A stretch of 53,359 nt of DNA, from assembly GCF_003003775.1 (NCBI RefSeq), contig NZ_PVWJ01000018.1:1-53359 (forward strand), read 5' to 3'. This DNA comes from Merismopedia glauca CCAP 1448/3. GTDB taxonomy: Bacteria > Cyanobacteriota > Cyanobacteriia > Cyanobacteriales > CCAP-1448. The first letter of the stretch is position 1. Each line of letters begins with the position of its first letter. The position numbers were made by a program, and so were the translations under genes. The notes under the pieces were generated by a model, which worked only from the letters and a program-made list of their open reading frames with translations, made no database searches and was not told the DNA's origin. Of this stretch, positions 27,814-48,486 are shown in pieces.

Positions 27814-27859
27814 AAGCTATTCAAATCCATTGGTACTAAGAATTAGTGTATTTACTCGA

Positions 27860-29233: not shown

Positions 29234-30052
29234 TTACCATTCATACCCAGTAGCATATCCCAATTCTATGAGAACCTTACCTGCCGTTTCTTTAAAAGCT
29301 TGCTTGTGTTCTTCTGAGAAATGATTTACCCAATCACCTATTTTACCTTTACGAAAAGTTCTGGCTTTAGTGAAGAAAGCTTTCTGAGCTATTTCAGGAA
29401 CTTGCGAAGGGGGTAAATCAATACCTAAATGATTTATGATGTTACTCACAGCTTGAATTTGCTGATCTTCACTACCCTCTCCGGCAGTACCAATTAGATC
29501 CTCGAAGCGAATTGTCAAGCAGTTAGGATCGTTTAACCACGGTACAAAAGCTATAGCGTGTTCTGCGATAGATCCCGATCTGATACCATCTGCAATCAAG
29601 TTTCCATCTACTCCTACAATAGAAGCCATAAGCCTTTCAGAATCAGATGGCAAAGATCTAAAGTAGGTAGATAATCGGTGCCTTCTATTTTTGAAGATGT
29701 AGTAAGCATTAGAAACTGCAATGTCTCTCAAATCACGAATAATAAACAGGGTACGAATATCCCTGTCTTGGCAAATGGTCGTTAGTTCTTGACTCCAATA
29801 AAGATGTGCAGATAAATATTGTCCTCGGCGAATATTTATGATTTTTTGCTCTACTCTCCAAGTATTATGATCGACATGGTATGCCCAACGAGATATCAAT
29901 TGAGGTAATAAAGAGAGAACTCTTGTTAGTAAATGAGTTCCTGATTTGGGCATACTATTAGCTAAAACTTTTGGACCCGAGAAAGAGGTGCTAAATTCGT
30001 TTAATGTGACAGGAAAAAGCAGTTCTGGGATGTAACTTTTAATTTTCAGCAT
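29234..30052 (-). CDS. Sulfotransferase (PAPS-dependent)
   Basis: 272 residues. The 5'-phosphosulfate-binding loop is MPKSGTHLLTR at about 34-44, the catalytic-type position follows in HVDHNTW, and the 3'-phosphate-binding motif is FIIRDLRDIAVSNAY at about 103-117. FRKGKIGDWVNHF near the C-terminus matches the conserved RKGxxGxW signature of sulfotransferases. It transfers a sulfate group from PAPS to a hydroxyl, most likely on a sugar of the polymer built by the neighbouring genes. Sulfated exopolysaccharides are known in cyanobacteria. No PAPS synthesis genes lie in the window. Confidence 0.9.
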   Translation of the reverse strand: MLKIKSYIPELLFPVTLNEFSTSFSGPKVLANSMPKSGTHLLTRVLSLLPQLISRWAYHVDHNTWRVEQKIINIRRGQYLSAHLYWSQELTTICQDRDIRTLFIIRDLRDIAVSNAYYIFKNRRHRLSTYFRSLPSDSERLMASIVGVDGNLIADGIRSGSIAEHAIAFVPWLNDPNCLTIRFEDLIGTAGEGSEDQQIQAVSNIINHLGIDLPPSQVPEIAQKAFFTKARTFRKGKIGDWVNHFSEEHKQAFKETAGKVLIELGYATGYEW

Positions 30053-30097
30053 TGTTTGTTGGTGTTAAGATTATATCTGATTCTAAAGGTATTAACA

Positions 30098-31225: not shown

Positions 31226-31229
31226 AATA

Positions 31230-32114
31230 TTACTCGTCATTATTAAAATTCATAATAATGCCAATTTGATGTACTTTAAGACCTAGCCAACCATTTAATT
31301 TAACCCTGACTTTATGATGATTACTTAAGTTATACATTTGACTTATTTCAGTCCAAATTTCCACAAAAGACTTTTCCATTTCACCACCCAAATCATCCCA
31401 AAATATCACAAACTCGTCTCGATCTAGTAAGTCATATTTTTTGATCATTTCCCATTCATATAATAGGGCTTTTGGACAATGGAGGGCATCAGAAAATATA
31501 ATATTGAACTTTTTCCCTGATAAACATTTCCAAGAATTTTCATCAAACACATCGCCGCTAATATAGGTTACTAAATTATTATTTTTCGGATCGTGATACT
31601 TAGTTAGTGACGAATCTTCCTTTTTATCAGAATCACTGATTGTTAACCATGTAATTCGATCTTTAAAAACTAAAAAATTCTCTAGAACAGGGTTAATTTT
31701 TTCAATATCAAACCCAGTAATATAACTATCTTTCCAAAAATTAATTACTTGCAGAAAGTTTTTGCCTGCGGAAACTCCTATCTCTAAATATTCTATTTTT
31801 TTATTGAGTCGACTACTCAAATACAAAATAGCATCTGAGTAAGTCATCTCTTGTCCAATATCATGATCGATAAGATGCTTTACATATTCAGGTATTCCAT
31901 ATTTAAATATAGATTCTTGATATACAGTATTATCCATCCATTTATCGACTAGATTCAAAGTATCTCTGTTATACTTAATTATTGGTTCAACTTGTTTTCT
32001 AGGAAATAATTTTCTTACCTTTGGCAAATCTCGCATCAAGCGAATTTGATTAGCCAGTCTCCCAGAAAACATTTTAATTTTTGTTATCATTTGACCTGAT
32101 AGAAGATAAACCAT
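31230..32114 (-). CDS. Class I SAM-dependent methyltransferase-like protein
   Basis: 294 residues. After an N-terminal basic region the SAM site is IEYLEIGVSAGKNFLQ at about 107-122, and the acidic residue is in ITGFDIEK. VTYISGDVFDENSW and FNIIFSDALHCPKALLYEW follow as motifs II and III. FVIFWDDLGGEMEK is reminiscent of acidic metal-binding residues of TylF-like O-methyltransferases. The frame starts at ATG 32114, with an alternative ATG at 32090. It overlaps the longer possible start of the next GT4 gene. Methylation of a sugar is inferred from the cluster. The family is likely but more diverged than its neighbours. Confidence 0.75.
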   Translation of the reverse strand: MVYLLSGQMITKIKMFSGRLANQIRLMRDLPKVRKLFPRKQVEPIIKYNRDTLNLVDKWMDNTVYQESIFKYGIPEYVKHLIDHDIGQEMTYSDAILYLSSRLNKKIEYLEIGVSAGKNFLQVINFWKDSYITGFDIEKINPVLENFLVFKDRITWLTISDSDKKEDSSLTKYHDPKNNNLVTYISGDVFDENSWKCLSGKKFNIIFSDALHCPKALLYEWEMIKKYDLLDRDEFVIFWDDLGGEMEKSFVEIWTEISQMYNLSNHHKVRVKLNGWLGLKVHQIGIIMNFNNDE

Positions 32115-32149
32115 CGAAAATTTAAACCGAATTCTGGTTGACTAAAGCG

Positions 32150-32917
32150 TCAACGAACTAATTTAACTAATACTGTATCTGCTGACGTAATTCCATTTAA
32201 CTTAGGTCTAAATAACTGACGAGCTAGTAGGATTATGAATAAAGGAAACTTAGCCATTAATACTGGTATTAATCTTGATTTAATAACCGATTTATTTCTC
32301 CCAAAATTGATCAGCCTAAAAGTATTTGTCGTGCGTTGTAAAGTAGATCTTGTAGATGGCATAAAATACTCAATTTTACACTTTAATTGCCAAGCTAGTT
32401 CATTATATGCCTTTTGATTCCAGCGAGTCATATGGTGGGGTGGATGATTCATGATATCAAACCATCCTTGCTCAAATGACATAGGAGAATAAGGAGTGCT
32501 AATTAAAAGACTACCTGTAGGCTTGAGAAGAAAAAGCATAGACTCAACAAAGTTTTTAGGATCGCTTATATGCTCTAAACAATGAAAAGATACTACATAA
32601 TCAAACTTCAATTCCGAAAATTTCTTGGTAAATGAATCTATGGTTTCACAGTAAACTTCAAATCCTTTTTCTTGGCATTGGGTAACAGATTCTGGAGTAG
32701 TATCAATCCCAACTATGCGAACATTTTGAATATTTTGGACAAGACTAATAAAATTTCCTCCACCACAACCTATTTCTAAAATGGAAACAGGGTTTAATTT
32801 TGCCTGTTTATTGATTTCTTCAATAACTGCAAACCATTCCCATCTAGATATAGGATAGTAACCTACTCTAGTCGTCACCCATTGATAAAATGGTTGAGTA
32901 CCAGGTTCTAGTGGCAC
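32150..32917 (-). CDS. SAM-dependent methyltransferase, catalytic part of a frameshifted gene
   Basis: 255 residues from an internal GTG at 32917. Motif I is SILEIGCGGGNFISLVQ, motif II is YVVSFHCLEHISDPKNF and the next strand LLISTPYSP. The open frame starts mid-protein: reading further upstream in another frame gives a Cys-rich N-terminus (see 33007-33102) as in methyltransferases that begin with a two-CxxC zinc ribbon. Adding one A in the 11-A run at 33024-33034 joins both into one protein, and RCKNCSLEY, the second CxxC, directly precedes the GTG. The C-terminal hydrophobic tail (LIPVLMAKFPLFIILLAR) may associate with the membrane. The gene may be silenced, expressed by slippage, or intact if the base count is a sequencing error. 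Confidence 0.78.
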   Translation of the reverse strand: MPLEPGTQPFYQWVTTRVGYYPISRWEWFAVIEEINKQAKLNPVSILEIGCGGGNFISLVQNIQNVRIVGIDTTPESVTQCQEKGFEVYCETIDSFTKKFSELKFDYVVSFHCLEHISDPKNFVESMLFLLKPTGSLLISTPYSPMSFEQGWFDIMNHPPHHMTRWNQKAYNELAWQLKCKIEYFMPSTRSTLQRTTNTFRLINFGRNKSVIKSRLIPVLMAKFPLFIILLARQLFRPKLNGITSADTVLVKLVR

Positions 32918-33006
32918 AGCATACTCAAGAGAGCAATTCTTGCATCTTCCGATCTCATAGTCTACTATTTGAATCGATTCGGGAGGCTTTTCACCAAAAT
33001 ATTTCT

Positions 33007-33102
33007 CTAATTCTGTAACAATATTTTTTTTTTTAGAGAACGAATGTGGATGGCATCAGAATTACAGATCGGACATTTAGCCAATATTATTGATTGAGGC
33101 AT
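33007..33102 (-). pseudogene. N-terminal zinc-ribbon fragment of the frameshifted methyltransferase
   Basis: From ATG 33102 this frame encodes about 31 residues with the first CxxC (KCPICNSDAIHIRSLKK) and runs into the homopolymer, then stops at TAG 33007-33009. With one more A in the run the frame would continue through KKKNIVTELEKYFGEKPP and RCKNCSLEY into the downstream methyltransferase. The 222 bp between neighbouring genes are otherwise unexplained, which supports the reading. Confidence 0.78.
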
Positions 33103-33139
33103 TGTCAAAATTCCCTTTTATTTCTTCTACTGATTAACT

Positions 33140-33907
33140 TTAATTAAAGTTCAATCGCGCCTTAATTTTACGTGATACTTTTTTGAGATCGAAAACCAGT
33201 TTAACCATAAATGGTTGAATGCCTAAAGGTATAAATTTCGTCCCAAAATCTATTTCTATCCACTTGTCTAAAAACATATTATCTTGATTTTCTAACTCAT
33301 CTGAAGGCAATTCCAGTAGTTGCACATAATCATTCCTGACAAACATCATATTGGCAGTAAAGCACACCAAAGAATATCCTTTGCTTTGACCAAGTTTAAG
33401 GGTAGATGTCCAACTTGATGAACTCATCTTATGATTATGAATATGCTCAATCCCAGGAGGTATATGACCATTAATTTCAATTAGTACGACTTTAGGATTA
33501 TAGTTTTTCAAGCTGTTCCAAATCTGCCAATCGTAAGAATCAATATCGATGCTTAACAGATCGAAATCTACAGGAGTTGGAGTTTTTGCAAGTAACAGAT
33601 CGAGACTGCGATCGCCCTCGATTTCCACATAAGCCTCTATGGGGATAATTTGCCCTGGATATTCCTCAGCCGTTAACATTAAATCTTGAACTCTGGCTTT
33701 ATCACCTTCAATTTCAACTCCCTTCCAACCAGATGAAAGTAGAGAAAAGGTATTGCTTAAATGCTTCCCATCCCAAGCACCGAACTCAACAAACCAACCG
33801 TGAGAAATGTTTAATCTCCTAAAAATTTCCCGTAAAACTCCATCTTCACCTGTTTGACTGGTGACATTATGACGATAGTTGAGTAAGGTAAAATTCTGTT
33901 TTGACAT
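33140..33907 (-). CDS. FkbM-like methyltransferase-fold protein
   Basis: About 255 residues from ATG 33907 (MSKQNFTLLNYRHN). The open frame could extend to ATG 33928 or to a TTG at 33982 that overlaps the upstream flippase stop. The core has SQTGEDGVLREIF, then WFVEFGAWDGKHLSNT, the SAM-binding start of FkbM-type enzymes, followed by FDLLSIDIDSYDWQIWNSL and VVLIEINGHIPP. The variable C-terminal half (NMMFVRNDYVQLLELP) is not matched to a substrate. FkbM-family members methylate sugar or polyketide hydroxyls; a sugar acceptor is most likely here. It lies between the flippase and the frameshifted methyltransferase. Confidence 0.8.
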   Translation of the reverse strand: MSKQNFTLLNYRHNVTSQTGEDGVLREIFRRLNISHGWFVEFGAWDGKHLSNTFSLLSSGWKGVEIEGDKARVQDLMLTAEEYPGQIIPIEAYVEIEGDRSLDLLLAKTPTPVDFDLLSIDIDSYDWQIWNSLKNYNPKVVLIEINGHIPPGIEHIHNHKMSSSSWTSTLKLGQSKGYSLVCFTANMMFVRNDYVQLLELPSDELENQDNMFLDKWIEIDFGTKFIPLGIQPFMVKLVFDLKKVSRKIKARLNFN

Positions 33908-33978
33908 ATTTGGGGGATTCAAGATCATTGAAATTTTGGAAAACCTACTAAAACAGCCGTATGTTATTTTACCTACTA

Positions 33979-35400
33979 TCAAGTTATTTTTAAAGTTTTA
34001 GTAGCTAACTTTGCGGCTGGAATCAGATAAAAAATACTATAGCCAAAAACTGTAGCCCAAATCACACCTGCTGCTTGCCATTGATGTACTAAAACAATTT
34101 TCATCAATAATGAGGCTATAGATGCGGCACTTATAAAAATCACTTGCTTGCTAATTAGAGAACCACTATTGAATAAGGTAGACATGGTGCCTATATAACC
34201 CAACAGAATCAACCAAAACGTAAATCCTATTAAGACAAGTGTAGATGGAACTAAGTTAGGCCCAGCCCAAATAGTGATAATTTTATTGGCAAATATAAAT
34301 AGTATCAAAGCCGTAATAATACCAATACTTGAACTTATAATTAAAGAACGATTTAGAGTTTTCCGCGCCCAATTGTAGTCAGCACGAGCTATGGCTTCAG
34401 CAAAAGCTGGCCATAGAGGAGTGATGAAAAACTGGGAAACAAAGGCTGTGGAAAACAGTTTTTGAGTCACAGCGTAACTAGCTACCGCCGAGGCTCCCAA
34501 AGCTTGCGAAATTATTAAATTATCACTAGCAGTACCCACTACTGTCAGGATTTGGAGAATGAAAAACCACGTACCTGTACCGAGTATTTTTCTACTCGCC
34601 AACCAGTTAAAGTATTTCCATTGAGGAAATAACCATTTGCGGGAAGAACCAAACAAAACAATCCAGTTAATCAGCATTCCCAAAACCGGACCACCTGAAA
34701 TTGCTAGTACTAGCCACGGCAATCCTACCTTAAAATAAACGCCTAGCAACAAACCAGCTAGCCCCATCAACCCACCAACGATCGCCCATAATTGATTTTT
34801 ATAACCTTCTTGATAACCCATCTGCACGCGCTGGGCAATTCCTAGGGGTATATTCACGGCAAAACTAGCAATCAAAACTGCCATAGTTGGTCCTGACTCT
34901 CGAACTGCTAAGTCAGATCTCACATTAAACACTCGCTCCCAAGGAATTAGAGGATATATGCTCGCAAAAACTACCAAAATGAGCATGGCGATCGCCAGTA
35001 GAATAAAGAAAGCACTCGATACATATACCCGTGCTGAGTGGCGATCGTCTTTCCCATCAGCTTCAGCAATAGCATTTAGTAGCCCACTACCCATACCCAA
35101 ATCAGCAAACGATAACAGAGCGATCGCTGAGCTAATAGTCATCCACAACCCATATCTTTCTGTCCCCAAATAATTCACAGTTAAAGGCACTGAAATTAAA
35201 TTGGTTAATATGCTCACCCCTTTACTAGCTACTGAAGCTGCGGTAGTTGCAAACACACGTCGATAGCGTTCTTTGGAACGACCATCTTCGGTCGTTTTAT
35301 CGAAAGATGATAAATGTACCAACGACGTGATTTTTTCCCATCTCCGTTGAATATTTAGACTACGAAAAGCTCGCATATACTTCAGCAATCTCTCTAGCAC
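33979..35400 (-). CDS. Polysaccharide flippase (Wzx-like, MATE/MOP superfamily)
   Basis: 473 residues with about twelve membrane helices after a basic N-terminus of some 50 residues. VFATTAASVASKGVSILTNL opens helix 1, and the early YLGTERYGLWMTISSAIALL and SFADLGMGSGLLNAIAEA follow the Wzx/RfbX pattern. It should flip lipid-linked repeat units across the inner membrane. A second flippase of the same superfamily (38062-39408) lies upstream in the same run, so the cluster may export two different units or one gene may be redundant. It starts 46 bp after the TylF-like gene on the same strand. Confidence 0.9.
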   Translation of the reverse strand: MLERLLKYMRAFRSLNIQRRWEKITSLVHLSSFDKTTEDGRSKERYRRVFATTAASVASKGVSILTNLISVPLTVNYLGTERYGLWMTISSAIALLSFADLGMGSGLLNAIAEADGKDDRHSARVYVSSAFFILLAIAMLILVVFASIYPLIPWERVFNVRSDLAVRESGPTMAVLIASFAVNIPLGIAQRVQMGYQEGYKNQLWAIVGGLMGLAGLLLGVYFKVGLPWLVLAISGGPVLGMLINWIVLFGSSRKWLFPQWKYFNWLASRKILGTGTWFFILQILTVVGTASDNLIISQALGASAVASYAVTQKLFSTAFVSQFFITPLWPAFAEAIARADYNWARKTLNRSLIISSSIGIITALILFIFANKIITIWAGPNLVPSTLVLIGFTFWLILLGYIGTMSTLFNSGSLISKQVIFISAASIASLLMKIVLVHQWQAAGVIWATVFGYSIFYLIPAAKLATKTLKIT

Positions 35401-35446
35401 AAACTTGGACTTAAAAAATGATGGGAAAACTAATCTGATAAATTAC

Positions 35447-36214
35447 TTATATTTTCACCCCTATTCTTCCGGTATAATCAATGCGATTTAAGAGAATTTT
35501 CAAATTATTTTGCTGAATATACTCATCTGTAGCTTGCTTTGCTCCTTGCCAATGCCCGTAATCATCAATAATAAGTACTCCACCTGGAACCAGACAGGGA
35601 AACAAATGAATTAGTTCATGCCGTGTTGATTCATACCAATCTGTATCCAGTCTTAACAAAGAAATCTGCGCGGGAGCAAATTCTGGCAAAGTATCTTCTA
35701 CTTTACCCTTAACAAAGTGAATCTTGTCTTTGTCATAACCTGTACTATATACAGCTTCTTTAACTTCTTCGACAGAAGAGTAAAGCCATTTTTGGTTACT
35801 ACTTTCTATCCCTTTAAACAGATCTAAAGCTTCTTTGCCTAAAAAAGATACATCCCGTGCATCGGGTTCTGTCATTCCTTCAAACGTATCAAATAAATAA
35901 ATATTTCTACTAGTATCTTTTAAAGAAAGCAGAGTTAGCATTGCTGCCATCATGCTTCCACCTTTCCAGACACCACACTCAACAATATCACCTGGAATTT
36001 GATTAGCAACAATATATTTAACCGAATTACAAACAGCATGAATTCTTTCTGGGGATGTATGGGTAAATGGCTTTACCCTAGAGATAATCTCAATATCATC
36101 TCGCTCGAAACCATCACTAATTAGAGATGCAGTACTGGTGTCGTGGTACTTAACTACATCAAATCCAAACTTGTGAATAGTTTTTTTAGCTAACTTAACT
36201 AAGCTTTTATTCAT
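35447..36214 (-). CDS. TylF/MycF-family macrocin-type O-methyltransferase
   Basis: 255 residues. The characteristic GDIVECGVWKGGSMMAAML opens the SAM site at about 75-93. IYLFDTFEGMTEPDA is the second conserved TylF motif, ISLLRLDTDWYESTRHEL has the D-x-D metal site, and GGVLIIDDYGHWQGA the second metal-binding Asp pair. Family members are Mg-dependent O-methyltransferases acting on deoxysugars such as macrocin. Its presence in a polysaccharide cluster points to O-methylated deoxysugars in the polymer. The ATG at 36214 follows a 93-bp gap after the FkbM gene. One of the most recognisable methyltransferases here. Confidence 0.93.
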   Translation of the reverse strand: MNKSLVKLAKKTIHKFGFDVVKYHDTSTASLISDGFERDDIEIISRVKPFTHTSPERIHAVCNSVKYIVANQIPGDIVECGVWKGGSMMAAMLTLLSLKDTSRNIYLFDTFEGMTEPDARDVSFLGKEALDLFKGIESSNQKWLYSSVEEVKEAVYSTGYDKDKIHFVKGKVEDTLPEFAPAQISLLRLDTDWYESTRHELIHLFPCLVPGGVLIIDDYGHWQGAKQATDEYIQQNNLKILLNRIDYTGRIGVKI

Positions 36215-36307
36215 GAAAAAAACCTCAAAATATTTGTTGGAAATGCTATGACTTAGACTGAATTTTAGCAGTTATAAGATTAGCTTAATGGCAGAGATTG
36301 GATTTAT

Positions 36308-37057
36308 TTAGCCATTATTAGCAAAAATACCATCTACTTGTAATTGAATCCCAGATTGACCTAAGATAGGGCTTGAAACCCCGATCAGGGTAAAATTTAT
36401 GTTTTTCATCAACTGATATATATCATCAAACAAAGGACTACCCTCGTACAAAGGCTGTAAGCTCATTTCTAAAACACAATATTGACTTTGGCAAATTGTC
36501 TTTTTACCACCACTAATTACTTTTTCCTCATATCCTTGAACATCAATTTTGATAATATCCGGTTTCATTAATCCCTGCTCCCGAACATAATCATCTAGAG
36601 CAGCGACTGGAACACTTATTTGCTTTTGAATTGCAGTTTCTGGAAATTGATCTGTATGTAATTTAGCCATAGGTAATAGGGAACTACTATCACTGCTCCC
36701 ACTAATATACATGGATGATTCCCCCGCTCTATCTCCTAAAGCTAAGTTATGACAATTAACTTTAGGATATTTTTGCATATTAGTCACCAATTGTTGATAT
36801 ACATCAGGAATTGGCTCAAATGAATAGATCAGTTTCACATTAGGCAATTTTGCTAAACAACTAGATACGATTCCTCTAGCAGCACCAATATCATAAACTA
36901 CTAGAGATTCTCCCTTTAGTATCGACTGGAGTTTTAGGTAGAATTCTCTTTCTCTAGCATCCAAAGGATAATCTGTTATTACCCCAGTTTGGGTAACTTG
37001 ATAATAAGAATAAGCTTTAGTATATTGTTGGTGAAACCAAGATCCTAATTTTTTCAT
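36308..37057 (-). CDS. FkbM-family methyltransferase
   Basis: 249 residues. LVVYDIGAARGIVSSCLA is the SAM-binding motif at about 53-70. The acidic residue in YSFEPIPDVYQQL and the DIIKIDVQGYEEKVISGG segment are diagnostic of the FkbM family. SSLLPMAKLH is the conserved stretch before it. FkbM proteins are O-methyltransferases found often in exopolysaccharide and O-antigen loci. It lies 45 bp after the next FkbM gene on the same strand, so the two are probably co-expressed, and resembles it in core motifs while their N-terminal parts differ. Confidence 0.92.
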   Translation of the reverse strand: MKKLGSWFHQQYTKAYSYYQVTQTGVITDYPLDAREREFYLKLQSILKGESLVVYDIGAARGIVSSCLAKLPNVKLIYSFEPIPDVYQQLVTNMQKYPKVNCHNLALGDRAGESSMYISGSSDSSSLLPMAKLHTDQFPETAIQKQISVPVAALDDYVREQGLMKPDIIKIDVQGYEEKVISGGKKTICQSQYCVLEMSLQPLYEGSPLFDDIYQLMKNINFTLIGVSSPILGQSGIQLQVDGIFANNG

Positions 37058-37102
37058 TACCTAGTTTTGAATTAGTTAGCTATGAATCTACTTAAACATT
37101 AT

Positions 37103-38065
37103 CTATAAGTGGTTAGGTAAAGCTACCCAATCCCAAGAAACAAATACTTCGCTGCTACCAAGATTGCAAGTTTTACCTTCTTTGGTTACTCCATATATAG
37201 AATAGCCATATTCTTCCAATATTTGGGTGGTTTTAGGAGTGGAAGACCATCCTGGGACAGCTTCGACGACTATATTTGGTTTATACTGTTTAATAATATT
37301 GGCTGCACCTTTAAGTGCTAACGGTTCGCCACCTTGAATATCCATTTTGATTAAATTGACGTGAGATAGCTGGTTGTGCCATGTATCTAGTGTGGTTACA
37401 TCAACTTCTTGAGTGGGAATTTTACCATTATCTATATATTCTTCACTACCTTCAATTAAAAAGTTACCACTGTTATCATTACTAGATAGAAATTGTTGTT
37501 TACCAATTGTATCTGCTACAGCTTGGTTGTGAAGAATCGCATAATCTTCTAAACCATTTTCTCGAACATTATGTGATAGTAGAGCAAAGTTTTGAGGATC
37601 TGGTTCAAAGCAATGAATAGTTCCTTTCCATCCCCGTTTTTTTAATTCATAGGCAACTATCAAAGTATAAATTCCATGATGAGCGCCGACATCTAACATG
37701 ACAAAATCTGGACAAATTTGGCTGACAACATATTGAACTAAATGGAACTCTATTTCCCCAACATAATAGGCTTGGGTTGACATTAAGCTGCCGAAAGAAC
37801 GGAATTTAATTTGCTCGTGGTAAACTAGAAAATCGTCAGGATGTTCGACAACAAATAAAGAATGAATTCGATTCAGAAAAAAAGGTTTCCAATATAACTG
37901 ATTGTCATGTCTGAGCCAAGGAGATTGGTGATAGTACCAGCGTAGTGGTTCTCGGAGATGTTGAGTAATCGGTAATAAAGGATATCCCGCTTTAGTGTAG
38001 GTATTAGTAATAGTTTGATCGATGTTTTTCAGGATTTTCCTGATTTGTTTAGGTATAAAATTCAT
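37103..38065 (-). CDS. FkbM-family methyltransferase, long form
   Basis: 320 residues, about 70 more than the neighbouring FkbM protein because of an N-terminal extension of roughly 110 residues (PLRWYYHQSPWLRHDNQLYW). The SAM motif is FVMLDVGAHHGIYTLIV at about 120-136. IHCFEPDPQNFALLSHNV, the FLSSNDNSGN stretch and VNLIKMDIQGGEPLALKG complete the FkbM signature. Its start codon overlaps the stop of the upstream flippase by 4 nt (38062-38065), so translation is probably coupled. Substrate unknown; a sugar in the same polymer is likely. Confidence 0.92.
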   Translation of the reverse strand: MNFIPKQIRKILKNIDQTITNTYTKAGYPLLPITQHLREPLRWYYHQSPWLRHDNQLYWKPFFLNRIHSLFVVEHPDDFLVYHEQIKFRSFGSLMSTQAYYVGEIEFHLVQYVVSQICPDFVMLDVGAHHGIYTLIVAYELKKRGWKGTIHCFEPDPQNFALLSHNVRENGLEDYAILHNQAVADTIGKQQFLSSNDNSGNFLIEGSEEYIDNGKIPTQEVDVTTLDTWHNQLSHVNLIKMDIQGGEPLALKGAANIIKQYKPNIVVEAVPGWSSTPKTTQILEEYGYSIYGVTKEGKTCNLGSSEVFVSWDWVALPNHL

Positions 38066-39408
38066 TTGAGGGGAAATAAATTAGTTTTTTGCAATAAAGA
38101 TTGGGAAAATAACCATATTTCTTGTGGATGTAGCCAACCAATCCATTTTTGAGGAGAAATATGCAGCCGATTCATAGCTATAGCCATACAGCTTAAAGTA
38201 CCGATGTATCCTATATTTCCCAATCCGGCTCCAGCAATTCCCCAAAGTTTGGCTCCTATGATGATTAGTAAGAGGGAAAAAATGCCACTCATGGTGACAA
38301 TTATCATGGAAATATTAGCTGCTCCTAAGCCTAAAAGGATATAGTAACCTACTGCATTTAAAGAATATAGTGCATAGGCGATCGCCGCCAGTTGCAAGGC
38401 TAATTGATATTGTGAATTATATTGACCAAAAAGGATAAATATTAACCAAGGTGATAAGAGTAATACAAATGCTCCCAAACCTATTCCTAGTATGAAATTT
38501 GCTTGAGTGGCTTGTTTAATTTGGTATTCTAGCCGATCGCGGCTACCTTGGAGCAACTCACCGAGTCTGGGTAGTAAAGGTTGAATCGCAATAGACGAAA
38601 ACACATTGATTTGAGTCGTTACAGTGGTAATCGCTCCATAAGCACCCAATAACTCAGTTCCCAGGATAGAACCGACTATTAGGCGATCGCCTTGCTGAAA
38701 TAAGGCACTTCCCAATGATGTAACCCAAGTAGCCGAACTGTAGCGCCATATTTCCCATCCTTTACCCCCATTCCAAGTAAATTTTGGTTGGTAAGGTACT
38801 AATAAATGAAACCCAACCCAACCATGTAAAAATAACATAACTAGAGCGGTAGTTGCCTGCCACTGCATCAAAGCAACAATTTTACCGCCTCCAGAGGCGA
38901 TCGCCACCATGCCGATGGTACTGGCTACTATTTGCAGTGTATTGAGAACATTTAACCAATCATATCTTTTATGAGCTTGTTCCACCCCAACCATCACTTG
39001 CTGCCACAATTTTGCCCAAATGAATAAAGCACCCCATTTTAGGGTTATAGCCGCACTGAGTCGTTGATTTACCTCCAAATTGGGAAATGAATCCAAAATT
39101 TGACCGCTATTTGCCCATAAGATTAATCCTGCCAAACTAGCTAAAACCAACATTCCTGTGATGGTAATAGTCAAAACTTGCGAAATACCTTGACGGTTAT
39201 CCGTAGCAATTTCTTGAGATAAAAAGACTGTAGTAGAAACTGAAAGCCCGCCTTCAGCCAATGCTACTATACCGAGAACTGTAGAAACTAGGGTCCATAA
39301 TCCATATTCTCGAACTCCAATTAAACGAATTAACAGGGGAACGGTGAGAAAGGTAAACCCAGTCCTCAAGATCAAACCCAACAGATTATAGAGACTATTT
39401 TTGAGCAT
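38062..39408 (-). CDS. Polysaccharide flippase (Wzx-like, MATE/MOP superfamily), first gene of the minus-strand run
   Basis: 448 residues with about twelve to fourteen membrane helices. MLKNSLYNLLGLILRTGFTF begins helix 1 and LIGVREYGLWTLVSTVLGIV follows the Wzx pattern, as does ALAEGGLSVSTTVFL. It should flip undecaprenyl-linked units for polymerisation. It is the first gene of the long minus-strand cluster, facing away from the Wza-like gene across 330 bp. It differs clearly from the second flippase at 33979-35400. Start ATG 39408. Wzx assignment is by fold pattern and context. Confidence 0.9.
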   Translation of the reverse strand: MLKNSLYNLLGLILRTGFTFLTVPLLIRLIGVREYGLWTLVSTVLGIVALAEGGLSVSTTVFLSQEIATDNRQGISQVLTITITGMLVLASLAGLILWANSGQILDSFPNLEVNQRLSAAITLKWGALFIWAKLWQQVMVGVEQAHKRYDWLNVLNTLQIVASTIGMVAIASGGGKIVALMQWQATTALVMLFLHGWVGFHLLVPYQPKFTWNGGKGWEIWRYSSATWVTSLGSALFQQGDRLIVGSILGTELLGAYGAITTVTTQINVFSSIAIQPLLPRLGELLQGSRDRLEYQIKQATQANFILGIGLGAFVLLLSPWLIFILFGQYNSQYQLALQLAAIAYALYSLNAVGYYILLGLGAANISMIIVTMSGIFSLLLIIIGAKLWGIAGAGLGNIGYIGTLSCMAIAMNRLHISPQKWIGWLHPQEIWLFSQSLLQKTNLFPLK

Positions 39409-39520
39409 TAATTACTGAGGCAATTAGGATTCATCTGGTAGTCAAATTCTAAAATACAAACAAATATACGATTCAGGCATCCTCAGAATAACTGAATTTG
39501 GCAAAATCTCCAGGAAATAG

Positions 39521-39660
39521 ATATAGCAAAAGTCAGTCGTAGAGACGTAGCAGTGCTACGTCTGTACAGAAGTCAGAAGTCAGAAGTTAAAACCAGTTGC
39601 TTCAATGGTTCCAGTCTTCTACAGTGTCCTAACCGCCGGGAACAATTCTGAACGCTATAA
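39521..39660 (+). mobile_element. MITE-like repeat family A, copy 2, with a nested palindrome
   Basis: It starts ATATAGCAAAAGTCAG, carries AGAAGTC heptads, AAAACCAGTTGC and GTGTCCTAACC blocks nearly identical to copy 3 (45198-45305), and ends near GCTATAA. A 34-bp stretch at about 39537-39570 is extra relative to copy 3 and contains the palindromic repeat. It fills much of the 330-bp divergent region 39409-39738. Besides it I see no confident promoter for the downstream gene. Confidence 0.8.
39539..39567. repeat. Dispersed palindromic repeat, copy 3, nested in a MITE-like element
   Basis: GTAGAGACGTAGCA and TGCTACGTCTGTAC arms (one mismatch in 14) around a single base. The same core occurs at 961-977 and 17587-17613. 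The position inside a family A element shows that the palindrome itself was inserted. Confidence 0.85.
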
Positions 39661-39738
39661 AATCTAGGAATACAGACTCCTTTGACTAAATGATGTTAAT
39701 GTTAATTGGAGCAAAAATGTCTCCAGACTTGAAGAGTG

Positions 39739-42564
39739 ATGAGAGTGAACGGTGTTATGAAAGCTTCCAGTTTTCCCAATTATTTGACTCGACCACTTGT
39801 TGGTTTAGTAGTGGTATCTTTAACAGCAACGGCTCTACCTGCCCCAATTGTGGCTCAGCAGCCACCTCAAATCATTGCTCAAGCTGGAGAAAGTGCATAC
39901 ACTTTAGGACCTGGCGATCGCATCCGCATTGATGTCTTTAACGTGCCTGAATATAGTGGCGAATATCAGGTTTTGGTCGATGGAAGCATTAATTTACCCA
40001 TTGTCGGCTCAGTCAATGTCCAAGGCTTAACCCTACAAGGAGGTGCTAATGCCATCTCCAGCCGCTACGCTCGCTACTTAAGACGACCCATCGTCACCAT
40101 GAGCCTCATTGCTCCCCGTCCCCTCAAAATCGGGGTGACAGGAGAAGTGAATCGACCTGGAGTCTATAATCTAGCACTTAATGGTGGCACTCAATTCCCT
40201 ACAGTCAGTCAAGCCTTACAACTAGCCGGAGGCGTGACTCAATCTGGTAATATTAGCCGGATTGTCGTGCGCCGCGCCGGAGGAAGAAACGTTACCGTCA
40301 ATCTCGCCCAAGTCGTCCAGGGTGGCAATATTTTCCGCGATATTGGGCTAAGGGACGGAGATACTATCTTTGTCCCCACCGCAGCTTATAACACCAACAC
40401 AGTTCGTCAGACTGCGGCTTCTTCCGTAGGAACTCAAGCCAATAGCGCCCAAATAGCCGTAATTGGGGAAGTATCTCGCCCTGGGACATATACCGTCAGA
40501 GGAGATGCGATCGGTGCTTTTACCCCCTACAGTCCGCCCAAATTAACCAGAGCCATTCAGACAGCAGGCGGATTAACCCCTTCGGCTGGTATCAGTCAAA
40601 TTCAAATCCGTCGCCCCACGAAAAATGGCAGAATTCAATCTATTCGAGTCAACCTCCTGCCATTATTACAACGAGGTGACTATTCTCAAGATATTTTTAT
40701 TGAAGATGGAGATACCATCTTCATCCCAGTCCAAAAGCCCCTCAGTGTCAGTCAAAGTAACCTAATTGCAGCTTCCAGCCTAGCCACCCAAACCACAGGA
40801 CCTATCAATATTGTCTTTGTGGGAGAAGTATCTCGTCCTGGAACTTACCCAGTCAGAGGGGAAACCGCAGGTCCTAATGGCACTATTGCTCCTCCTACAT
40901 TGACTCAAGCCATTAAAGTGGCTGGTGGTTTAACCCCTTCAGCTAGCATCAGTGGAATTAGAATTCAGCGTACTAACAAAAACGGTTCCACCCAAGCGAT
41001 CGCCGTTAATTTAAACCGTTTATTGCGTAATGCTGACTTTTCTCAAGATTTATTGCTTCAAGAAGGGGATAAAGTTTTCATCCCCACCCGAGGGAGTCTC
41101 AATTCTGAAGAAACCAACCTAATTGCTAGCTCTACTTTAGCTCCTCAAACCACAGGACCGATTAATATAGCCTTAGTAGGAGAAGTATCCCGCCCTGGAA
41201 CTTACCCAGTTAGAGGAGAAACCGCAGGACCAAATGGAACTATTGCTCCTCCCACCATTAGTCAGGCAATCAAAATTGCTGGTGGTTTGACTCCTTCGGC
41301 TAATATTCGGGAAATTAGCATCCAACGCAATACTAGAAGTGGTAAACAAACCTTCAATGCTAACCTACTGCAACTGTTGCAAAACGGTGATTTTAATCAA
41401 GACTTAATTTTGCAAGAAGGAGACAGGGTTTTTATTCCTACTCGTCCTGTCTTGAATGCAGAAGATGCCAATCTAATCGCAGTTTCTACCCTAGCTACTC
41501 AAACTACAGGACCAATCAATGTCGTAGTTGTAGGAGAAGTATCTCGTCCTGGAACTTACCCAGTTAAAGGAGAAACCGCAGGTCCAAATGGTACTATTGC
41601 TCCACCTACCCTGACTCAAGCCATTAAAGCTTCTGGTGGTTTTACCCCTTCAGCTAATATCCGTCAGGTGCAAGTAGAACGCAATACCAGAAGTGGGAAA
41701 CAGTTACTGGCCGTTAACTTACAACAACTATTGCAAAGCGGTGACTTTACTCAAGATCTAGTTTTACAAGAAGGAGATAAAGTCCTAATTCCTACCCGCA
41801 CTGTAGTCGATGTGGCAGATAGTAACTTAATTTCGGCTTCGACTTTAGCAACTCAAAGTACAGGACCGATTAATGTTGTCATCGTGGGTGAAGTCAACCG
41901 TCCAGGGACATTTCCGGTTAAAGGAGAAGCCGCAGGACCCAACGGAACCTTAACCCCACCTACAGTCACTCAAGCCATCCAAGTGGCTGGAGGGATTAAA
42001 CCCACTGCTGATATTCGTCAAGTTCAAGTCAAAAGATCTACTAGAGATGGTTCGACTCAAGTTCTGGATGTGAATTTATGGCAATTGTTACAAGCAGGTG
42101 ATTCGACTCAAGACATTTTGCTACAAGATGGAGATACGATTTCGATTCCTACTGCTCCCAATCTAGATCCGACAGAAGTAGCCATTCTCAGTAATGCTAG
42201 CTTTTCTCCTACCAGTATTAGAGTTAATGTAGTTGGAGAGGTAGAAAGGGCTGGTACGGTGGAAGTTCCCCCCAATACAACTTTGAATCAGGCAATATTA
42301 ACGGCTGGAGGATTTAATCGTCGCGCTCGAAAACGGACTGTCGAGTTAGTCAGGCTTAATCCTAATGGAACCGTAACTAAGCGCAATGTAGAGGTAGATT
42401 TTGCTAAGGGGATTAGTGAAGAAAATAATCCTACCCTACGCAATAATGATGTGATTGTGGTGGGTCGTTCTTCCATTGCCCAAATTGGAGATGCTGTCGG
42501 CACTGTGTTACAACCTATAGGTAGCTTTTTCTCCCTATTCAATTTCTTCAGGATCTTCAATTAA
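39739..42564 (+). CDS. Wza-like polysaccharide export protein with seven SLBB-type repeats
   Basis: About 941 residues. A signal peptide is followed by a likely cleavage region at ALPAPIVAQQ (roughly residues 34-41), then the Poly_export domain (YTLGPGDRIRIDVF, VDGSINLPIVG) and seven SLBB-type units each opening with a GEVxRPGT motif, the last as GEVERAGT. Units 3-6 recur every 118-119 residues with nearly identical ETAGPNGTIAPP stretches. Wza of E. coli has 379 residues and two SLBB domains, so this is greatly extended. It should form the outer-membrane or periplasmic export channel with the downstream Wzc-like protein. A GTG at 39736 and an ATG at 39757 are alternative starts; the ATG at 39739 follows GAAGAG. 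The C-terminus ends in a hydrophobic, Phe-rich stretch. Confidence 0.93.
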   Translation: MRVNGVMKASSFPNYLTRPLVGLVVVSLTATALPAPIVAQQPPQIIAQAGESAYTLGPGDRIRIDVFNVPEYSGEYQVLVDGSINLPIVGSVNVQGLTLQGGANAISSRYARYLRRPIVTMSLIAPRPLKIGVTGEVNRPGVYNLALNGGTQFPTVSQALQLAGGVTQSGNISRIVVRRAGGRNVTVNLAQVVQGGNIFRDIGLRDGDTIFVPTAAYNTNTVRQTAASSVGTQANSAQIAVIGEVSRPGTYTVRGDAIGAFTPYSPPKLTRAIQTAGGLTPSAGISQIQIRRPTKNGRIQSIRVNLLPLLQRGDYSQDIFIEDGDTIFIPVQKPLSVSQSNLIAASSLATQTTGPINIVFVGEVSRPGTYPVRGETAGPNGTIAPPTLTQAIKVAGGLTPSASISGIRIQRTNKNGSTQAIAVNLNRLLRNADFSQDLLLQEGDKVFIPTRGSLNSEETNLIASSTLAPQTTGPINIALVGEVSRPGTYPVRGETAGPNGTIAPPTISQAIKIAGGLTPSANIREISIQRNTRSGKQTFNANLLQLLQNGDFNQDLILQEGDRVFIPTRPVLNAEDANLIAVSTLATQTTGPINVVVVGEVSRPGTYPVKGETAGPNGTIAPPTLTQAIKASGGFTPSANIRQVQVERNTRSGKQLLAVNLQQLLQSGDFTQDLVLQEGDKVLIPTRTVVDVADSNLISASTLATQSTGPINVVIVGEVNRPGTFPVKGEAAGPNGTLTPPTVTQAIQVAGGIKPTADIRQVQVKRSTRDGSTQVLDVNLWQLLQAGDSTQDILLQDGDTISIPTAPNLDPTEVAILSNASFSPTSIRVNVVGEVERAGTVEVPPNTTLNQAILTAGGFNRRARKRTVELVRLNPNGTVTKRNVEVDFAKGISEENNPTLRNNDVIVVGRSSIAQIGDAVGTVLQPIGSFFSLFNFFRIFN

Positions 42565-42721
42565 CGAGCTATGCTCAATTTGTTTAAATGGGGAAATTAT
42601 GATAGTAATGTATAATTTTGTTCTTAATTGCATCCATTAGCACTAACAACAAAATTTTGCTAATTGAAAACCAGAGAGAACCATTGATTGGTGAAACTCA
42701 TTAACCGAAATATAAATGTTT

Positions 42722-42729
42722 AGGGGAGA
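42722..42729 (+). promoter_or_regulatory. Strong Shine-Dalgarno site of the Wzc-like gene
   Basis: AGGGGAGA lies 2-3 bp before the ATG at 42732, counted from the A of the trailing GAC. It is purine-rich and close to the start, deciding the first ATG. Confidence 0.7.
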
Positions 42730-42731
42730 CT

Positions 42732-45104
42732 ATGGAACCGACGCCAGCCCATCAACAGGGAGCGCAGAACGGTAACGGAAAAGTACCGCCAACGTTACCC
42801 ATAGCCTATCAACCGCAAATCCCAGAATCTAACCAAGATGGCGATGATTGGGATTTGCAGCTATTGTTGCAAATGTTACAAAGACGGGGCTGGGTTATTG
42901 GGGCGATCGCCCTGTCGGTAGTCCTAGCTATTACTCTGTATACCCTAAAACAAGTCAAGATCTATCAAGGTGAATTCCAACTTCTAGTTGAACCAATCAA
43001 TAAAGATCAAGATAAACTCTCTCAACTAACAGAAACGTTGGGAGAGATCAACACCAATAAATCTGGGTTAGACTATGACACTCAAATTGAAGTGTTGAGC
43101 AGCGAGAAAATATTACTCCCCATTATCTCCAAAATAAATAGCAGTTGTGGTGCCAGTTTGCAGTATGACTCATTGGTAGAAACCCTGAAAATTACCCGCA
43201 AAGAAGAAACCAAAATTCTGCTGACAAGCTACCAAGATCCAAATCCTCAAACAATTGACTGCGTACTCAAGGAACTGTCTCAAGGATACATTAGCTATTC
43301 CCAACAAGAACGCCAAAGCACTATATTTCAGGGCGTTAAATTTGTCGAAGAGCAACTACCAGAAATTAGAGGTAGAGTAGACAAACTTCAAGCTCAATTA
43401 CAAGCTTTCCGCCAACGGTATAATATTCTAGATCCGCAAATTCAAGCTGAGCAGTTAGCCAATCGCCTAACAGTTATTGAAGGTCAAAGGGTCGAAAGCT
43501 TGGTCAGACTCAACGAAATTCGCTCTTTGTACAGTACCTTACAGGCACAACTAGGAGTATCACCAGATAAAGCGATCGCTTTTTCAGCCTTAAGTGAATC
43601 TCCTCGTTACCAAAAGCTCCTAGATCAACTTCAAGATGTAGAAGCTCAGATAGCTTCTGAATTAGCCAGATTTAACGAAAATAGCCCAACAGTTCAAGCA
43701 TTGAGAGACAAACAACGGAATTTACTCCCACTATTGCGGCAAGAAGCCACTAGAGTCTTGGGGAAAAATTCCTCACCACCTACCACCACCGCCGCTAAAG
43801 GTAATTCTACTTCCCCAAGTGCTATTCGCTCTAATCTCAGCCAACAATTAGTTGAGAGTGCTAATCAAATTAAAGTTCTAGAAGTCAGAGTAGCGGGAAT
43901 TAACCAAGCCCAAGTAGCTTTACAACGGCAAATTCAGCAAATGCCCTTGATTGCTCGTCAATATACCGATCTACAACGAGAATTAACCGTAGCCACCGAA
44001 AGTTTAAATCGGTTTTTGGGGGTCAAAGAAAACTTACAAATTGAAGCGGCTCAAAAAGAGTTACCTTGGCAGTTATTAGCTGCACCAATCGTCTTCAATA
44101 AACCAGTATCTCCTAATATACCTCGAAATATAGTGTTAGGAGTTATAGCGGGCTTATTATTAGGCATGGGAGTAGCATTAACCCTAGAAAGGTTAGATAA
44201 TGTCTTTCACTCTCTAGATGAACTCAAAGATCGTACTAGACTACCTTTATTGGGGACGATTCCTTACGATAAAGATTTAGCCAAAGGGGATTTAGATGGA
44301 GAACCTGGCGGTTGGCTGTCGCAAACCCTTAGAGACTCTACTCAAGATACCAAAAAACGCTCTCATCGTTATCACGCTTCTCCTTTTTTAGAGTCTTTCC
44401 GCTCTCTACAAACTAATATTAGCTTTCTAGGCTCTGATAATCCGGTTAACTCAGTTGTTATCAGTTCTGCTACACCAGGCGATGGAAAATCTACTGTTAG
44501 CTGCAATTTAGCTCAAGCGGCGGCGGCGATGGGACAGCGAGTCCTATTGGTAGATGCAGATATGCGCCGTCCTAGAGTACATGAGGTTTTAGGACTAGAA
44601 AATCAAACTGGACTGAGTAATTTATTAGCTACAGACATTTATTCTAAGCAAGCAATGCAGGTATTGCCGGGATGGGATAATTTACACGTTATTACGGCTG
44701 GAGATCCCCTACCACCAGATCCGACTAGGTTATTAGGATCTCACAAAATGCATCAACTGATGCAAGAATTAGAGTCAGAATTTGACTTAGTTATCTATGA
44801 TACTCCTCCAGTATTAGGATTAGCTGATGGTAGGTTGTTAGTACCCCACACGGCTGGATTGATTTTGGTTGTCAAATTGGGTAAGACAGATAGAAGTGCT
44901 GTTAAAGAAACCTTGGATTTGATGAGGTTATCTTCAGCTAATGTATTGGGAGTAGTGGCTAATGGTACTAGGGGTAAAGCTAATAGTGCTTACTACTATG
45001 ATAAGTACTACACTAAGCCAGAAAAAGATACTCAAATTGAACAGGCTAAACAGCTATTACAGAAGAGTTTGAAAAAGGATGATAGCTCTGAAAAGGAAGA
45101 TTAA
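42732..45104 (+). CDS. Wzc-like polysaccharide co-polymerase with tyrosine kinase domain (BY-kinase)
   Basis: 790 residues. The N-terminal cytoplasmic segment is Pro-rich, TM1 is at about 56-73, the Wzz-type periplasmic region carries long coiled coils, and TM2 is at about 466-486. The cytoplasmic bacterial tyrosine kinase domain has Walker A TPGDGKST with the P-loop Lys at 586, Walker A' VLLVDADMRRP and Walker B LVIYDTPPVLGLAD. The C-terminal Tyr-rich cluster SAYYYDKYYTK is the usual autophosphorylation site. It controls chain length and pairs with the upstream Wza-like protein for export; phosphorylation of the tail switches assembly state. The gap between the two genes is 167 bp with no other feature. 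A fused kinase is the proteobacterial arrangement, and is also seen in cyanobacteria. Confidence 0.95.
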   Translation: MEPTPAHQQGAQNGNGKVPPTLPIAYQPQIPESNQDGDDWDLQLLLQMLQRRGWVIGAIALSVVLAITLYTLKQVKIYQGEFQLLVEPINKDQDKLSQLTETLGEINTNKSGLDYDTQIEVLSSEKILLPIISKINSSCGASLQYDSLVETLKITRKEETKILLTSYQDPNPQTIDCVLKELSQGYISYSQQERQSTIFQGVKFVEEQLPEIRGRVDKLQAQLQAFRQRYNILDPQIQAEQLANRLTVIEGQRVESLVRLNEIRSLYSTLQAQLGVSPDKAIAFSALSESPRYQKLLDQLQDVEAQIASELARFNENSPTVQALRDKQRNLLPLLRQEATRVLGKNSSPPTTTAAKGNSTSPSAIRSNLSQQLVESANQIKVLEVRVAGINQAQVALQRQIQQMPLIARQYTDLQRELTVATESLNRFLGVKENLQIEAAQKELPWQLLAAPIVFNKPVSPNIPRNIVLGVIAGLLLGMGVALTLERLDNVFHSLDELKDRTRLPLLGTIPYDKDLAKGDLDGEPGGWLSQTLRDSTQDTKKRSHRYHASPFLESFRSLQTNISFLGSDNPVNSVVISSATPGDGKSTVSCNLAQAAAAMGQRVLLVDADMRRPRVHEVLGLENQTGLSNLLATDIYSKQAMQVLPGWDNLHVITAGDPLPPDPTRLLGSHKMHQLMQELESEFDLVIYDTPPVLGLADGRLLVPHTAGLILVVKLGKTDRSAVKETLDLMRLSSANVLGVVANGTRGKANSAYYYDKYYTKPEKDTQIEQAKQLLQKSLKKDDSSEKED

Positions 45105-45197
45105 TACTTTTGCTGCTTTTCATCAGAAACGATCAAAAACCTTCAATGCGAGATTGTTGGGATATATCTGTGGAAGAAACTTTTTTGTGGCTGACAG

Positions 45198-45305
45198 ATA
45201 TAGCAAAAGTCAGAAGTCAGAAGTCAGAAGTCAGAAGTTAAAACCAGTTGCTTCAATGGTTCCAGTCTTCTAGAGTGTCCTAACCTTGATGCGTACTGCT
45301 ATATA
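45198..45305 (+). mobile_element. MITE-like repeat family A, copy 3
   Basis: It begins ATATAGCAAAAGTC, has four tandem AGAAGTC heptads, shares about 53 bp with copy 2 with one mismatch (AAAACCAGTTGC to CCTAACC) and ends TACTGCTATATA, an imperfect inverted repeat of the start. No coding capacity. The rest of 45105-45336 shows no supported gene. Confidence 0.82.
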
Positions 45306-45336
45306 ATTTTGTTAAAGCTTGGTTTTGGTTAAAGAG

Positions 45337-45984
45337 ATGGTTGCATCAATATCCCTAAACCGTATAGAAATCCCTGCTGGGCAGAGAATCTACCTGCACG
45401 ACATTGATTGGCAGGAATTAGAGCAAATTTTACTCGAACTGGGAGACAAAAGGGCTACCCGCATCGCCTACTTTGACGGAGAATTAGAGATTCGGATGCC
45501 ATTGCCAGAACACGAGCGCGCCAAAGTGCTAATCAGCTACTTGTTAGTAGTGCTTCTTGAAGAATTAGATTTACCTTGGGAGTCACTGGGTTCTTCTACC
45601 TTCAAGAAAGAGAGTATGAAAGCAGGAATTGAGCCTGATGATTGTTTTTACCTCAAAAACTGTAGAGCCATGATTCGCAAGAAACGTTTAGATCTGACTA
45701 TAGATCCGCCACCCGATCTAGCAATAGAAGTCGATCTAACATCTCCCACCCAAATCAGTGCTTATGAAGCATTAGGTGTACCCGAAATTTGGCGGTATAA
45801 GAACGGTAAATTAGTAATTTTCATCCTGGCAGATGGGCATTATATTGAGGTTTCCATAAGTCCAACCTTTCCAACTCTACCAGTTAGAGAAGGAATTTCA
45901 CGTTTGCTAGAGCGCAGTACTGAGATGTTGATGAGTGAAGCGATAAAAGTATTCCGTCAAGAAGTTCGACAATGGCTTAAATAA
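45337..45984 (+). CDS. Uma2 family protein (DUF820, PD-(D/E)XK nuclease fold)
   Basis: About 215 residues from ATG 45337 (a TTG at 45319 extends the frame by six residues). YFDGELEIRMPLPEHERAK contains the conserved E-x-R/M-P pattern, ESMKAGIEPDDCFYLKNC the catalytic-type Glu-Pro-Asp, and DLAIEVDLTSPT the D/E-x-D core of the PD-(D/E)XK fold (IEVD). GVPEIWRYKNGKLVI is a further family hallmark. Uma2 genes are numerous in cyanobacteria, often beside mobile elements, and their role is unclear. It sits directly after a MITE-like repeat and between the Wzc-like and GT4 genes, so its link to polysaccharide export is doubtful. Confidence 0.9.
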   Translation: MVASISLNRIEIPAGQRIYLHDIDWQELEQILLELGDKRATRIAYFDGELEIRMPLPEHERAKVLISYLLVVLLEELDLPWESLGSSTFKKESMKAGIEPDDCFYLKNCRAMIRKKRLDLTIDPPPDLAIEVDLTSPTQISAYEALGVPEIWRYKNGKLVIFILADGHYIEVSISPTFPTLPVREGISRLLERSTEMLMSEAIKVFRQEVRQWLK

Positions 45985-46100
45985 GCTGGCAAGAGCATTT
46001 AATACCAATTATATAAATCCATACTACAGATCGTGGGGTAGGCTTCTAGGTAAGCCCTTGAGCTTAATTTATGGAGAAATCTATTAATTAAATCGACGTT

Positions 46101-47264
46101 ATGCTGCGTTTATTGCTATTGACAGAACGATTTCCGCCAGATATTGGGGGAGTAGCCACTAGTGCTGGGAGGATTACTCAAGTTTTGACTCAACTGGGGG
46201 TAGAAGTTGATGTTGTGACTTGGAGTCGATACCTGCAACCTGGAGAGGTATCAGCAACAGAAATTCCTCAAGTCTATCGGGTGGGATTGTACCGTCATTG
46301 GGATATGACGATGCCTAGTACGCTCAATTTTTTAGACTGGTTGCATCAATCCCGAAGATATGATGCTATCTGGGGACATTATCTGTTTCCTAGCGGTTTT
46401 TTAGCTACTTGGTTCGGTAAGTTACAGGGGATACCTAGTATAGTCAGCGCTCGTGGTAATGATGTTGATAAGGAAATGTTTCCCCCTGGGGATTTTGCTA
46501 GACTCAAGTGGACTTTAGAAACGGCTGATGTAGTGACGGCTGTAAGTCGGGATATTGCGAGGAAGATTGAGTTACTAAGCGGTAGGGATGATGTGGCAGT
46601 TATTTATAATGCCGTTAATCCAGAGGTTTTTACACCTCTAGAGTCAATAGATGAAGCTAGAATTAGAGATCGCAAAACTAATCTAGGAATTCAACCTGAT
46701 GAGGTAGTATTGGGTTTTGCTGGAGAGTTACGGGAGAAAAAAGGGCAACAGTTCCTCTTACAAGCTTTAACCAAAGTCAGGGAAAAACGTTCTGCTTGTT
46801 TATTAATTATTGGGGAAGTAAGAGCATCTCAAGAAGCACTATTACAATCTTATACGGCTCAAAACCCAGATTATGCTATCAGGGTGATTATTACTGGTCA
46901 TTTACCCGATCCTGAAGCTGTGGCGCAACATTTACAGCTTTGTGATGTCTATTTACAACCATCTTTGTGGGAAGGTTTACCCAATGCATTATTAGAAGCA
47001 ATGGCGTGTGGTTGTGGGTGCATTGCTAGCGATGCGGGAGGAATTCCAGAGATTATTACTCATGGTAAAGATGGGTTTATCCTCTCTCGTTCTCATTTAC
47101 ATCGTTTGGGAGAGGCGGTTTTGGAGTATTTGGATTTACCTGAAGAAACCAAGCAGGAAATCACAAAAGCAGCACGCGATCGCATTTATACCACGTTTTC
47201 CCCCACTCAAGAGAAATCCTATCTAGAAGCTGTCCTCAATCGCCTCATACCGAGTTCCTCATAA
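46101..47264 (+). CDS. Glycosyltransferase family 4 (GT-B fold)
   Basis: 387 residues, beginning MLRLLLLTERFPPDIGGVAT with the acceptor loop. The mid-domain VSARGNDVDKEMFPP and IYNAVNPEVFTP hinge precede LGFAGELREKKGQQFLLQAL and the EX7E motif EGLPNALLEAMACGCG. The C-terminal 15 residues overlap the end of the next gene on the opposite strand. ATG 46101 is preceded by a 116-bp region containing no other gene, with one AATACCAATT motif also seen at 51035. Sugar specificity is unknown. Belongs to the plus-strand part of the polysaccharide region. Confidence 0.93.
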   Translation: MLRLLLLTERFPPDIGGVATSAGRITQVLTQLGVEVDVVTWSRYLQPGEVSATEIPQVYRVGLYRHWDMTMPSTLNFLDWLHQSRRYDAIWGHYLFPSGFLATWFGKLQGIPSIVSARGNDVDKEMFPPGDFARLKWTLETADVVTAVSRDIARKIELLSGRDDVAVIYNAVNPEVFTPLESIDEARIRDRKTNLGIQPDEVVLGFAGELREKKGQQFLLQALTKVREKRSACLLIIGEVRASQEALLQSYTAQNPDYAIRVIITGHLPDPEAVAQHLQLCDVYLQPSLWEGLPNALLEAMACGCGCIASDAGGIPEIITHGKDGFILSRSHLHRLGEAVLEYLDLPEETKQEITKAARDRIYTTFSPTQEKSYLEAVLNRLIPSSS

Positions 47265-48436: not shown

Positions 48437-48486
48437 AAGGAAGAAGGAAGAGGGAAGAAGGAAGAAGGAAGAAGGAAGAAGAAAGG
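48437..48486. repeat. Heptad tandem repeat (GGAAGAA, about seven units) abutting a start codon
   Basis: A purine-rich array on the plus strand, read as a pyrimidine-rich leader in the minus-strand glycosyltransferase mRNA. It begins at the base next to the ATG (48434-48436 on the minus strand). The same unit occurs at 13599-13629. Confidence 0.88.

Follow-up and report, generated by a model that had tools for sequence, protein, structure and literature searches.

The Merismopedia glauca CCAP 1448/3 gene at 39736..42564 (+) encodes a Wza-type outer-membrane polysaccharide export (OPX) protein, a relative of E. coli Wza, and carries seven SLBB units where Wza has two. It lies in a window of 53,359 nucleotides, the whole stretch of DNA that we analysed. 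The repeats show only moderate similarity to one another and are old. We think it likely (probability about 0.8) that the protein is the translocon of a Wzx/Wzy-dependent exopolysaccharide pathway, that its SLBB units are stacked as rings, and that the number of units evolves by block recombination.

A Wza-type export protein with seven SLBB units

The gene, recognised from its open frame, Pfam profiles and anchor motifs, is an uninterrupted run of 942 codons. Candidate starts are GTG 39736 and ATG 39739. Alignment with the start in the sister genus favours a third, ATG 39757, as the probable conserved start. The protein runs from a signal region through a Poly_export domain and the SLBB units to a hydrophobic C-terminal tail. 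Its 942 residues include no cysteine, and the secretion signal region is thus also free of it. The Poly_export domain (PF02563; 39889..40107, +; residues 52-124) scores 77.6 bits against a cut-off of 28 (E 8e-22) and is the only match to this family in the whole genome, making this the sole OPX gene. A second genomic match to PF10531, on contig C50, looks like a NuoF/HoxF-type subunit and not an OPX protein. An Rfam scan of 39000-46000 gave no match.

All seven units lie on the forward strand. Units 1 (40114..40428) and 2 (40444..40785) were found by profile and are orthologous to the first and second units of the sister-genus protein (61% and 70% amino-acid identity, respectively); unit 1 is orthologous family-wide. 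Three internal units form a homogenised group: units 3 (40798..41142) and 5 (41509..41850), placed by profile and unit comparison, and unit 4 (41155..41493), identified from the predicted fold of that unit alone (pLDDT 91, pTM 0.82). Unit 6 (41863..42207) is of a penultimate type, orthologous across relatives as judged by profile, tree and sister-genus alignment. The short unit 7 (42208..42474), of the last type, has a profile match, a sister-genus orthologue and a fold match to GfcC/ComEA.

GEV anchors recur at residues 136, 244, 363, 482, 600, 718 and 834, spaced 108-119 residues apart. Our own SLBB profile finds seven units, and Pfam marks SLBB_2 in seven stretches and SLBB in eight. At the DNA level, TRF reports a period of 354 (3.5 copies, 71% matches) and a repeat finder spacings of 357/354/354. 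Seven units at such regular spacing are far beyond chance. The original observation of seven SLBB-type repeats, four of them recurring every 354-357 bp, is therefore borne out by profiles, period and fold, and two of the checks proposed with it, a profile count and structure prediction, support seven SLBB units, not just two or three. We take all seven to be true SLBB units on the combined evidence of unit folds, profiles and a repeated secondary-structure pattern; the fold support covers units 1, 4 and 7, the others resting on profiles and the secondary-structure pattern of the full-length model. Matches to PF08007 (JmjC_2), ThiS-like and TrkA_C families overlap SLBB segments and are taken to be spurious.

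The family profile matches Wza (E 2e-27). The full-length model (mean pLDDT 74, pTM 0.43), which does not fix the stacking geometry, matches Wza and Myxococcus WzaB over Poly_export and the first SLBB (Z 12-15). For internal unit 4, the best structural match is the first SLBB of Wza (residues 169-275, Z 11-13, 30-33% identity), followed by GfcC and ComEA. E. coli Wza (PDB 2j58; Wza-Wzc complex 9r60-9r69, PMC12881504) likewise has Poly_export followed by SLBB and an adjacent Wzc-type co-polymerase. In Merismopedia the presumed partner, with a Wzz domain and a BY-kinase by Pfam, is a 790-residue protein encoded at 42732..45104 (+), and the OPX/co-polymerase gene pair is kept in most relatives examined. 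Three features of OPX family membership are thus present: Poly_export, at least one SLBB behind it and an adjacent co-polymerase. Unlike E. coli Wza, the Merismopedia protein has no lipoprotein cysteine. Cyanobacterial Wza/KpsD homologues described previously belong to the same gene family and have the same partner type, PCP-2a (PMC4594306); the main text of that paper is silent on SLBB domains. Among open-access papers we found neither a structure nor an assay of an OPX protein with many SLBB domains.

Glycosyltransferases and a flippase candidate lie close to the gene pair. The divergent neighbour at 38062..39408 (-) is a Wzx-type flippase candidate (Polysacc_synt, Pfam), and a group 1 glycosyltransferase at 46101..47264 (+) also stands beside the pair in the sister genus. 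On the reverse strand, 19674-38065 holds methyltransferases (at least two FkbM-type), glycosyltransferases, flippase candidates and, by eye, a sulfotransferase-like gene (29234-30052); this block is consistent with a polysaccharide modification locus. TRF also detected 7-bp tandem arrays at 9153-9190, 13598-13628, 45207-45238 and 48437-48485 (ACTCCCT, AGGAAGA, AAGTCAG and AAGGAAG), one of them directly after the co-polymerase gene. Heptamer repeats of this kind are familiar from cyanobacterial genomes. The Merismopedia genome (G000; contigs C74, C115 and C120) has four Wzz-type matches, three of them above the cut-off, against one OPX gene, which suggests that other co-polymerases may share the single exporter.

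The tail (SIAQIGDAVGTVLQPIGSFFSLFNFFRIFN; 42475..42561, +) is conserved and hydrophobic and is a candidate outer-membrane segment; the full-length model predicts a helix at 913-925 with low confidence. A Pfam search for Wza_C (PF18412) at E up to 10 gave no match in 41 homologues, whereas the published class definition used HHpred. We also rejected an amphipathic C-terminal helix, the helical moment being no higher than that of shuffled sequences (median p 0.26). Since the tail has no Wza_C match and is not clearly amphipathic, crossing the outer membrane could need a separate barrel; no outer-membrane barrel family was found among the neighbouring genes scanned, which cover part of the locus. 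In the published scheme, Class 1 is Poly_export-SLBB(1-14)-Wza_C and Class 3 is Poly_export-SLBB(1-7), without Wza_C or GfcC and often with a separate outer-membrane barrel (PMC9603273). The Merismopedia architecture and SLBB number fall inside these ranges, and the protein combines the lack of Wza_C by Pfam with a conserved hydrophobic tail. A lipoprotein signal, common but not defining in Class 1 (about 78% of members), is absent from this cysteine-free protein.

Age and probable homogenisation of the internal units

The repeats at about 40822, 41179, 41533 and 41887 had been described as nearly identical. They are not. Units 3-5 share 67-73% amino-acid and 71-74% nucleotide identity in pairwise comparison, and unit 6 (the copy at 41887) matches them at 52-61% and 61-63%, so that no pair exceeds 74% at the nucleotide level, in contradiction to the very high similarity that was claimed. 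The impression of near-identity arose because the cited repeats were those of the anchor block, the most conserved stretch of the unit (80-91% nucleotide identity). Identical stretches shared by two copies reach 32 nt at most. Silent divergence among units 3-5 is near saturation (dS about 0.8-1.5), and on this and the identities we reject recent duplication for this gene. The idea of a recent tandem expansion is therefore half right: the unit tree supports internal duplication, and the near-saturated silent sites and the seven units of the sister genus speak against recency.

Our within-family comparison is with one relative, from another genus (L005/L153). Its orthologue is a 943-aa frame with seven units, the same following genes and 70% identity. 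Units 1, 2, 6 and 7 are one-to-one orthologous between the two genera. Units 3-5 share a motif that reads GETAGPNGTIAPPT in Merismopedia and GESAGPNGTLSPPS in the sister genus. At codons for identical residues, third-position identity reaches 0.62 among units 3-5 inside each genus, compared with 0.47 at orthologous positions (bootstrap P <=0.0005), and one-to-one pairing of these units as orthologues is rejected in an AU test (p <=0.0064). The AU signal is confined to the first 36 codons (p <=0.0003); the rest of the unit is compatible with orthology. The simplest reading of these sequences is an older array in which each lineage has homogenised the conserved block of units 3-5 on its own. The pattern could instead have come from two expansions to seven units that happened independently.

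Unit number across cyanobacteria

We surveyed the window-like subfamily in 73 genomes, one per species. Three or fewer units are present in 39, four in 14, five in 10, six in 8 and seven in 2, as counted with the SLBB profile over open frames, some of which are cut by contig ends; high counts are over-represented in the sample, many genomes having been chosen by their match to a seven-unit query. In the unit tree, first and penultimate units are orthologous across taxa, and internal units form some five or six lineage-specific groups. Outside this family the base number in the order is three units, the internal units having expanded separately in several lineages.

There is direct evidence that copy number changes by single whole units. 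One related genus has six units in three species and five in a fourth (three-contig assembly). The five-unit congener matches units 1, 2, 4, 5 and 6 of the six-unit species at 89-96%, and the loss is a clean in-frame gap of 115 residues with its junction inside the conserved block. Copy-number variation, originally raised as a possibility, is in this way confirmed between species of a related genus. Younger unit pairs occur in other relatives (92% nucleotide identity in L044, 94% in L049). In the latter (L049:3807-6879, assembly UBA11372), a run of unknown bases interrupts the SLBB array beside the 94%-identical pair, so short-read assemblies may miscount the units of young arrays.

Cyanobacteria have a second OPX subfamily (L116, L120, L130, L132), whose last unit is its own (VRILSYPGQ...). 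Its members carry two SLBB units in most families, three or four in others and five or six in family f9.

In several relatives, one to three SLH (S-layer homology) domains precede Poly_export. These SLH-OPX fusions occur in Oscillatoria princeps RMCB-10, Microcoleus vaginatus WJT46-NPBG5, their family, G009 and Scytolyngbya (L052:6825-9410, L048:4365-6938, L010:145-2793, L267-L271, L008:145-3114 and L102:6960-9287). SLH (PF00395) was detected in the five OPX relatives scanned at E 5e-9 to 7e-31, and in the others by motif. The architecture suggests that the fusion anchors the translocon to a wall-linked polymer, and it falls outside the three published OPX classes. We found no open-access paper on such a fusion; a class-wide search brought up mainly SLH proteins of the ordinary kind and left the spread of the fusions undefined.

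Proposed mechanism and tube length

By analogy with the E. coli Wza-Wzc complex, the protein would oligomerise as a ring, and its Poly_export ring would dock onto the helical arms of the co-polymerase. In the E. coli complex, Wza accounts for 140 Å of 360 Å and the Wzc forearm contacts Wza D1 (cryo-EM, PMC12881504). The SLBB units would stack as successive rings to form a longer periplasmic tube, greatly lengthened by five rings more than Wza has, and the C-terminal tail may reach or cross the outer membrane. Internal units would recombine through their conserved first third (GEVxRPGTYxVxGE...PPT), a process in which whole units could be gained or lost in frame and the block homogenised. The first, second-to-last and last units would stay fixed, perhaps for specialised contacts.

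Is the long stack an adaptation for spanning an unusually thick envelope or peptidoglycan in cyanobacteria, along the lines originally proposed? Counts of five to seven are concentrated in filamentous Oscillatoria-like genera (such as Laspinema, Argonema and Planktothricoides), both OPX subfamilies are expanded in families f9 and f20, and several relatives carry fused SLH domains, which suggest wall contact. Co-polymerase geometry also points this way. The notion that a long OPX protein is offset by a short co-polymerase failed, the TM1-TM2 spacing averaging 404 with three units and 403-424 with five to seven; over SLBB number the trend is weakly positive (rho 0.35, p 0.007, without phylogenetic correction). 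As the spacing does not shrink, a longer OPX protein should give a longer machine. However, genome G032 encodes OPX proteins with 6, 3 and 2 SLBB units within one envelope, and four other genomes have 6 and 2; in all, seven genomes contain OPX proteins at least three units apart. Across 50 genomes the unit counts of the two subfamilies show a weak correlation (rho 0.32, p 0.02), which at the level of 14 families is not significant (rho 0.35, p 0.22). A genome-wide covariation, which had looked strong in G009, G037 and G020, was rejected on this basis, with f32 the clear exception. Moreover, a tomogram survey found OPX length uncorrelated with periplasm thickness (PMC9603273). Mixed-length paralogues, weak covariation and the published survey thus leave envelope bridging unsupported as a rule, and we consider it unlikely, though it may play a part in particular lineages. 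Tube length seems to depend on lineage and pathway and not just on how thick the envelope is.

Such pathway- and lineage-specific counts would also suit extra SLBB units that serve, not as a ruler, but as a glycan-binding or sorting surface for exported polymer or peptidoglycan, and SLBB has been proposed as a binder of sugars or other soluble ligands (PMC1796856). Against this, the SLBB rings of Wza form the tube wall in an established structure (PMC12881504), and we regard a binding role as doubtful. A recent expansion with copy number varying among strains, in the manner of contingency repeats, seems very improbable to us. The in-frame 354-357 bp period, the one-unit loss in a related genus and the younger pairs of other relatives (up to 94%) are what such repeats would give; but the lineage of the window reaches at most 74% nucleotide identity, with dS at least 0.8 and 32 nt as its longest exact match, its sister genus has seven units too, and most families surveyed are constant or vary by one unit.

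Our preferred reading remains block recombination in a stacked-ring translocon. A broader proposal, which we advance tentatively and at less than even odds, is that cyanobacterial OPX proteins are length-adjustable tubes: recombination at a fixed unit-start block would add or remove whole rings in frame, always between end rings that are conserved, and each lineage would tune ring number for each pathway, from two to seven, with SLH wall anchors in some cases. OPX proteins with 1-14 SLBB domains have already been described (PMC9603273), and a 2007 paper mentions 1-8 repeats (PMC1796856). What seems to be undescribed in the open-access papers searched is that unit number in cyanobacteria evolves internally, guided by a conserved block.

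OPX proteins vary widely in SLBB number, and in the published comparison this variation showed no link to the width of the periplasm. A natural series of two to seven units is available in cyanobacteria, with mixed-length paralogues in one cell and one clean single-unit loss between congeners, and this makes the role of ring number directly testable. The Merismopedia species, with its one OPX gene, is the simple case.
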